From Patescibacteria group bacterium (lineage in GTDB: Bacteria; Patescibacteriota; Minisyncoccia; Phycocordibacterales; Phycocordibacteraceae), in NCBI GenBank assembly GCA_018969385.1, contig JAGWYL010000006.1, positions 1 to 43,391 on the forward strand: 43,391 nucleotides of DNA, read 5' to 3'. Positions 21,915-22,075 of the stretch are shown here, in pieces. The translations under genes and the position numbers were made by a program. The notes below the pieces were generated by a model. That model was not told the origin of the DNA. It did no database searches and was given only the letters and a program-made list of their open reading frames with translations. The first letter of the stretch is position 1. Every line of letters starts with the position of its first letter.

Positions 21915-22046
21915 GCCCGCACACTCAATCTCGCATGCTTCGCATGCCGTCACGAGTTATGAGTGCCATACGCACTGGCGCTCTTCTCAACCGACTTACT
22001 TAAGCGGATACATTGAGGCGAAGCATGCGAGATTGAGTGTGCGGGC
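21915..22046. repeat. long perfect inverted repeat, family A copy 2
   Basis: gcccgcacactcaatctcgcatgcttcgc / gcgaagcatgcgagattgagtgtgcgggc, 29-bp perfect arms, 74-nt spacer. Confidence 0.95.
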
Positions 22047-22075
22047 TTGACCGCGCGGGGCGCGGATGCTTAACT
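22047..22075 (+). promoter_or_regulatory. promoter of the leuA leader
   Basis: TTGACC-17-TTAACT (or TAACTT with an 18-nt spacer). Confidence 0.7.

Follow-up and report, generated by a model that had tools for sequence, protein, structure and literature searches.

Why should a long inverted repeat with perfect arms end exactly where the presumed leader promoter of leuA begins? The question arises in a stretch of 43,391 nucleotides (hereafter, the window) from a Patescibacteria group bacterium whose draft genome has 757,562 bases and is 92.6% complete; many of its relatives have genomes of 0.3-1.2 Mb. The 29-nt arms at 21915-21943 and 22018-22046, separated by a 74-nt spacer, are real and 100% complementary, and TTGACC (22047-22052) starts directly after the right arm, as had been claimed. 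When the window was simulated 60 times by a first-order Markov model, the longest perfect arms had a mean length of 12.7 and a maximum of 17. The original prediction offered two explanations for this arrangement, a shared operator or UP-like element, and a MITE-like insert that donates -35 hexamers. We find that the repeat is very probably a single inserted copy of a palindromic, non-autonomous element of the MITE-like kind, and that the -35 belongs to the host.

The boundaries of the leuA copy were set by comparing 35 copies of the family. In the 29-bp arms, the outermost G/C pair comes from the flanking DNA, as part of a 4-bp target-site duplication (TSD), and lies outside the element proper, which starts and ends with 21-bp terminal inverted repeats (TIRs). 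The locus is organised as follows.

21912..21915, + strand: left 4-bp target duplication CCTG, 3/4 identical to the right copy; a 4-bp TSD is found family-wide
21916..22045, + strand: palindromic element, very probably mobile, leuA copy, 130 bp (scan of the whole genome with the covariance model: 114 bits, E 6.4e-24)
21916..21936, + strand: left TIR (CCCGCACACTCAATCTCGCAT), the 21-bp TIR common to the family
21937..21943, + strand: extra stem GCTTCGC, pairing with 22018-22024; most long copies have interleaved X/Y helices here instead
22025..22045, + strand: right TIR, 21 bp (ATGCGAGATTGAGTGTGCGGG), from the family comparison
22046..22049, + strand: right 4-bp target duplication CTTG, overlapping the -35
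22047..22052, + strand: TTGACC, the -35 hexamer of the presumed promoter of the leuA leader, in host DNA outside the element; the same hexamer occurs at element-free topA
22070..22075, + strand: -10-like TTAACT, 17 nt from the -35
22085..22159, + strand: Leu-rich leader peptide ORF MHTRTAKLLDLLLTPTQGGGPARV, probable leuA attenuator leader
22271..23818, + strand: leuA (2-isopropylmalate synthase; Pfam HMGL-like and LeuA_dimer)

Between the promoter and leuA, the region 22085-22230 contains the Leu-rich leader followed by alternative stems (GGTGGAGG / CCCTCCAC / GGAGGG), and is a probable leucine attenuator.

The element family is dispersed across one order of small-genome (CPR/Patescibacteria-like) bacteria. 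We tabulated 56 copies, which fall into two length classes, 128-141 bp (most copies) and 62-77 bp, plus one copy of 245 bp. The latter contains a nested element; the other 55 are 62-141 bp long and lack a transposase gene. The ends of the family are 21-bp inverted repeats of the form CCCG-N-ACACY...GCAT. A covariance model (CM) built from six copies identified the family in 12 of the 93 genomes of the genus, with several copies each in G000, G007, G027, and G127, and among 397 genomes of the order a strict TIR pattern matched 15, with 0 control matches. Outside the order this pattern gave no convincing copy, only 2 single TIR matches vs 1 control match. The search of 2.9 million viral contigs with a two-arm pattern that recovers the known copies gave 0 matches. 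An exact 15-mer scan had matches in many unrelated bacteria, none of them with a second arm, and these were set aside as chance; the 12-mer alone gave four single matches in relatives and no clear pair. We found no description of this family in the literature, in a limited search, so that it may have been described elsewhere.

Two more copies lie in the window, one of them being the related pair of arms (8568-8579 / 8627-8638) noted earlier upstream of rplU, which is also real.

8569..8637, - strand: short-class copy of 69 bp upstream of rplU (CM E 3.2e-11; + strand flanks CAAG/CAAT)
41537..41598, + strand: third window copy, short class, 62 bp, diverged (CM 30.6 bits, E 1.7e-5; flanks TATA/CAGG)

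Further copies of the arms in the same genome lie between an exonuclease/phosphatase-like gene and topA (contig C18) and inside a ComEA-like gene (contig C23). The puzzling promoter hairpin is now replaced by a dispersed element family. The window has other palindromes and one intron. A second palindromic family, with GAACTCATTTCAAAACC arms, is found at 34589-34689; one of its copies is nested in an element of the first family on another contig of this genome (C15), and a relative lies upstream of topA in G014. A 25-bp perfect hairpin at 31473-31535 has a centre (TTCGGAAGCGAACTC.CCTTAGGCTTCCGAA) matching the inner hairpin at 34615-34659, and positions 13603-13648 form a 46-bp near-perfect palindrome without spacer (CCGCCATCTCGCTTTTTGTCCTA / TAGGACGAAAAGCGAGATGGCGG). 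The group I intron is at 42842-43076 (Rfam RF00028, 62.3 bits).

Target duplications argue for insertion. With the element ends set at CCCG...CGGG, the 4-bp flanks are identical in 18 of 35 copies of the genus (permutation mean 2.3, maximum 9 in 10,000), and in the wider set of 53 copies, 27 have a perfect duplication (permutation mean 3.3, maximum 12) and 39 agree at three or more positions. The offset profile peaks within the duplication, with identity in 25-27 of 35 copies at each of the four TSD positions vs 6-17 of 35 outside. The target sites include TATA, TTTA, CTTG, CCCG, CAAA, CATC, and CAAG. The duplication is imperfect at the leuA copy (CCTG/CTTG, 3/4) and at the topA copy of the same genome (2/4). 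The nested insertion seen within an element copy was also counted for mobility.

Copies also occur inside and beside RNA genes and in coding sequence. Rfam searches placed copies inside the 23S rRNA genes of G057 and G127 and inside the 16S rRNA gene of G127 (flanks TAAA/TAAA). The RNase P RNA gene of G334 (L376, 1440-2043) has two near-identical copies about 300 nt apart, possibly an assembly artefact. Other copies adjoin tRNAs or sit between 23S and 5S. The element itself matches no Rfam family above the gathering score, the host genes being the only ones to score, and the hairpins give weak sub-threshold matches to miRNA precursors. The clear homologue-supported case in coding sequence is the ComEA-like gene, whose relatives lack the insertion: element and duplication add 141 bp, i.e. 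47 codons, in frame, within the signal peptide, between CTTG/CTTG flanks. The frame is kept in 8 of the 10 copies spanned by long ORFs, most of these ORFs being putative.

The arms vary between copies while complementarity within each copy is maintained. In 26 aligned copies, 95.8% of the stem cells are paired, and 96 stem cells have changed on both sides, vs 28.5+-5.3 for shuffles and a maximum of 22 for slid alignments. Position 5 (the N of CCCG-N-ACAC) is the exception in this paired stem: it is unpaired in 16 of the 26 copies, and in 44 of 46 copies its two ends are either both A/C or both G/T (29.2 when shuffled, maximum 38). Inward of the TIRs, two interleaved helices recur among the 34 non-redundant long copies, X/X' in 27, Y/Y' in 26, and both in 23, when 1,000 shuffles led to expectations of 3.6, 3.8, and 0.9, respectively; these counts come from search windows chosen post hoc on the same data and from copies that are partly non-independent. 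The control, a nested arrangement of the helices in the long copies, showed no excess over shuffles. Every one of the 27 X and 26 Y sequences is different. The arrangement X-Y-loop-X'-Y' corresponds to an H-type pseudoknot, and the simultaneous formation of both helices is putative. The central loop, of 60-68 nt, has no conserved hairpin (mean best stem of 4.32 vs 4.36 in shuffled sequences). In the leuA copy, a longer plain stem takes the place of these interleaved helices.

Complementarity could be kept without selection if template switching during replication corrected one arm from the other. Closely spaced perfect arms are in general good substrates for such quasipalindrome correction, and the process would yield covariation in the stem. 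However, it fails to predict both the conserved interleaved X-Y-X'-Y' helices, whose sequences differ in each copy, and the unpaired position 5 within an otherwise paired stem, and we regard it as unlikely. The original prediction took the perfect arms to imply recent origin, gene conversion, or strong selection. The covariation, with pairing kept while the sequence drifts, would fit selection on a folded form or arm-to-arm correction. Maintained pairing with free sequence in the interleaved helices is not predicted by double-stranded recognition of terminal repeats, and it raises the question of which folded strand is seen by the mobilising machinery or by host RNA processing.

How did an element of this kind come to abut a -35? 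Among 93 genus genomes, leuA was found in this one alone, and there is thus no strain-level pair with and without the leuA element. The comparison of orthologous intergenic regions proposed earlier was possible between species at topA, where it revealed filled and empty sites. Among the topA regions of 93 species of the genus, related elements are found at this very site in G007, G027, and G127, which together with the genome under study (G000) are the only four with an element at this site, and the right flank there is CTTGACC. In most relatives, the topA promoter, TTGACC-(18)-TATGAG, stands at this position with no element beside it, and the promoter is therefore older than the insertion. 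At topA, the element abuts the -35 because it was inserted at CTTG|AC of a pre-existing promoter, the CTTG target overlapping the -35. The spacer of this promoter (TTGACCATATATAGGTATRCGCGYTATGAG) is unusually conserved across the genus, and the start codon lies only a few bases past the -10, which suggests a near-leaderless topA mRNA.

Other readings give the hairpin a role of its own at each promoter. It might be an intrinsic terminator or transcription insulator, locally selected at each site. The hairpins are stable, and the rplU arm is followed by TTGCTTTTT, which resembles the terminator/-35 overlap of relatives; in several of these, the T-tract of a terminator upstream of rplU overlaps the rplU -35. 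Yet a T-tract is missing at both leuA and topA, the gene preceding leuA already comes with a terminator (around 21873-21903), and TSDs and dispersal are unexpected for terminators. As a general account this is improbable, and the rplU hairpin may have an additional role in termination.

The idea of a shared operator or UP-like element, with GAGTGTGCGGGC as a regulator's binding site in front of leuA, rplU, and topA, drew on the fact that this 12-mer abuts the -35 at all three genes (with one mismatch at topA). But the 12-mer is merely the end of a mobile TIR, of which many copies lie away from promoters, including inside genes for rRNA and RNase P RNA and within a coding sequence. Moreover, it is absent from the topA promoter of most relatives, and the three genes apparently form no obvious common regulon. 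A common operator is thus very unlikely, and promoter-abutting repeats can stem from the choice of target, CTTG|AC overlapping TTGAC, with no operator role required. Equally slim are the chances that the element donates an outward -35, as a mobile promoter of the sort reported for Correia elements: TTG follows the right arm in 4 of the 4 copies first seen, but TTGACC lies outside the TIR, overlaps the target duplication, and is kept at topA in element-free relatives, and the flanks in the wider set include TATA, TTTA, CATC, CCCG, and others. The original prediction of a MITE-like insert is hence supported by the dispersed family, its 21-bp TIRs, and its 4-bp target duplications, whereas the part on -35 donation is not. 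Finally, a supercoiling-sensitive cruciform linking topA and leuA was rejected, as the 74-nt spacer would disfavour extrusion and the distribution of the element is wider.

Having favoured the insertion of a mobile element, we propose how it may have occurred. An enzyme supplied in trans would make 4-bp staggered cuts at YWWR-like sites, e.g. CTTG, TTTA, or TATA, and insert the element. A CTTG|AC target overlaps the -35 (TTGAC), and insertion there would leave the -35 intact at the right side of the element. At leuA, the main effect of the insertion would be to displace or insulate the DNA upstream, with the promoter still working. The drift of sequence under maintained pairing leads us to infer a step at which a folded single strand of the element, be it RNA or ssDNA, is the acting or recognised form. 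A more specific version of this proposal is tentative: the family may be a structure-defined mobile class, with a 21-bp hairpin, one fixed unpaired position, and an H-type pseudoknot cap around a loop of 60-68 nt of free sequence, mobilised in such a single-stranded fold (RNA or ssDNA) and nevertheless leaving 4-bp duplications. Because the structure forms independently of its surroundings, rRNA and RNase P RNA would tolerate it.

TIR scans of 8, 397, and 380 genomes, of which the drafts are incomplete, revealed no long TIR-flanked element that could be the autonomous partner, and the genomes searched yielded no matching transposase either. Two candidates were discarded. An IS4-like element in G027 has an unrelated TIR (ACCACTAGTGTCTCG), and mobilisation by an IS1380 element was set aside as PF13701 exceeds the cut-off in 0 of 30 genomes.

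How does this family compare with known systems? Like a generic MITE, it is short, lacks a transposase gene, and has TIRs and a TSD of fixed length, here 4 bp; unlike the generic case, an autonomous relative with the same TIRs was not found. Many accepted MITEs have no known partner. As the partner was not found in these draft genomes, we use the term MITE-like. The family resembles the REPIN/RAYT system in having a hairpin made of an inverted pair of short repeats, REPINs being moved in trans. It differs from REPINs in that it has no GTAG or CGTC tag at the foot of each palindrome (its TIR opens with CCCG...), its arms are not themselves palindromes, and there is a 4-bp TSD. The bcr1 element of the Bacillus cereus group is a dispersed element of about 155 bp, with a folded structure and a short target duplication. 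The latter is the 5-bp TTTAT, whereas the family described here has a variable 4-bp duplication, and the sequences are, as far as is known, unrelated.

Palindromic elements near and within genes are known from other bacteria. Rickettsia palindromic elements (RPE) are about 150 bp long, have no transposase gene, and occur in reduced genomes, with in-frame insertions in coding sequences (PMC10969869). Our family is likewise palindromic, of comparable size, devoid of a transposase gene, and present in reduced genomes. It differs from RPE in its host phylum, its 4-bp TSD, its conserved interleaved-helix fold, its copies in rRNA and RNase P RNA, and probably its sequence. The Correia elements of Neisseria (CREE/NEMIS) have TIRs and about 100-150 bp, lie near genes, form hairpins that bind RNase III, and can abut promoters (PMC2649163, PMC10969869). 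However, they carry promoter sequence at their own ends, whereas here the -35 is outside the TIR. Their target duplication is TA, compared with 4 bp in this family.

Links between DNA mobility and RNA folding are known from IStrons (PMC4227781), but the element described here has neither a group I intron nor an IS gene. The rRNA genes of CPR bacteria have many ORF-less insertions of <200 bp, which were suggested to be IVS cleaved by RNase III (PMC11270868). Our 16S and 23S copies may be among the insertions of that study, with the difference that the element is additionally dispersed outside rRNA genes with TSDs. Since the same element is found in such places, some CPR rRNA insertions may belong to a mobile family, and the family described here may account for a share of the short insertions in these genes that were reported without characterisation.
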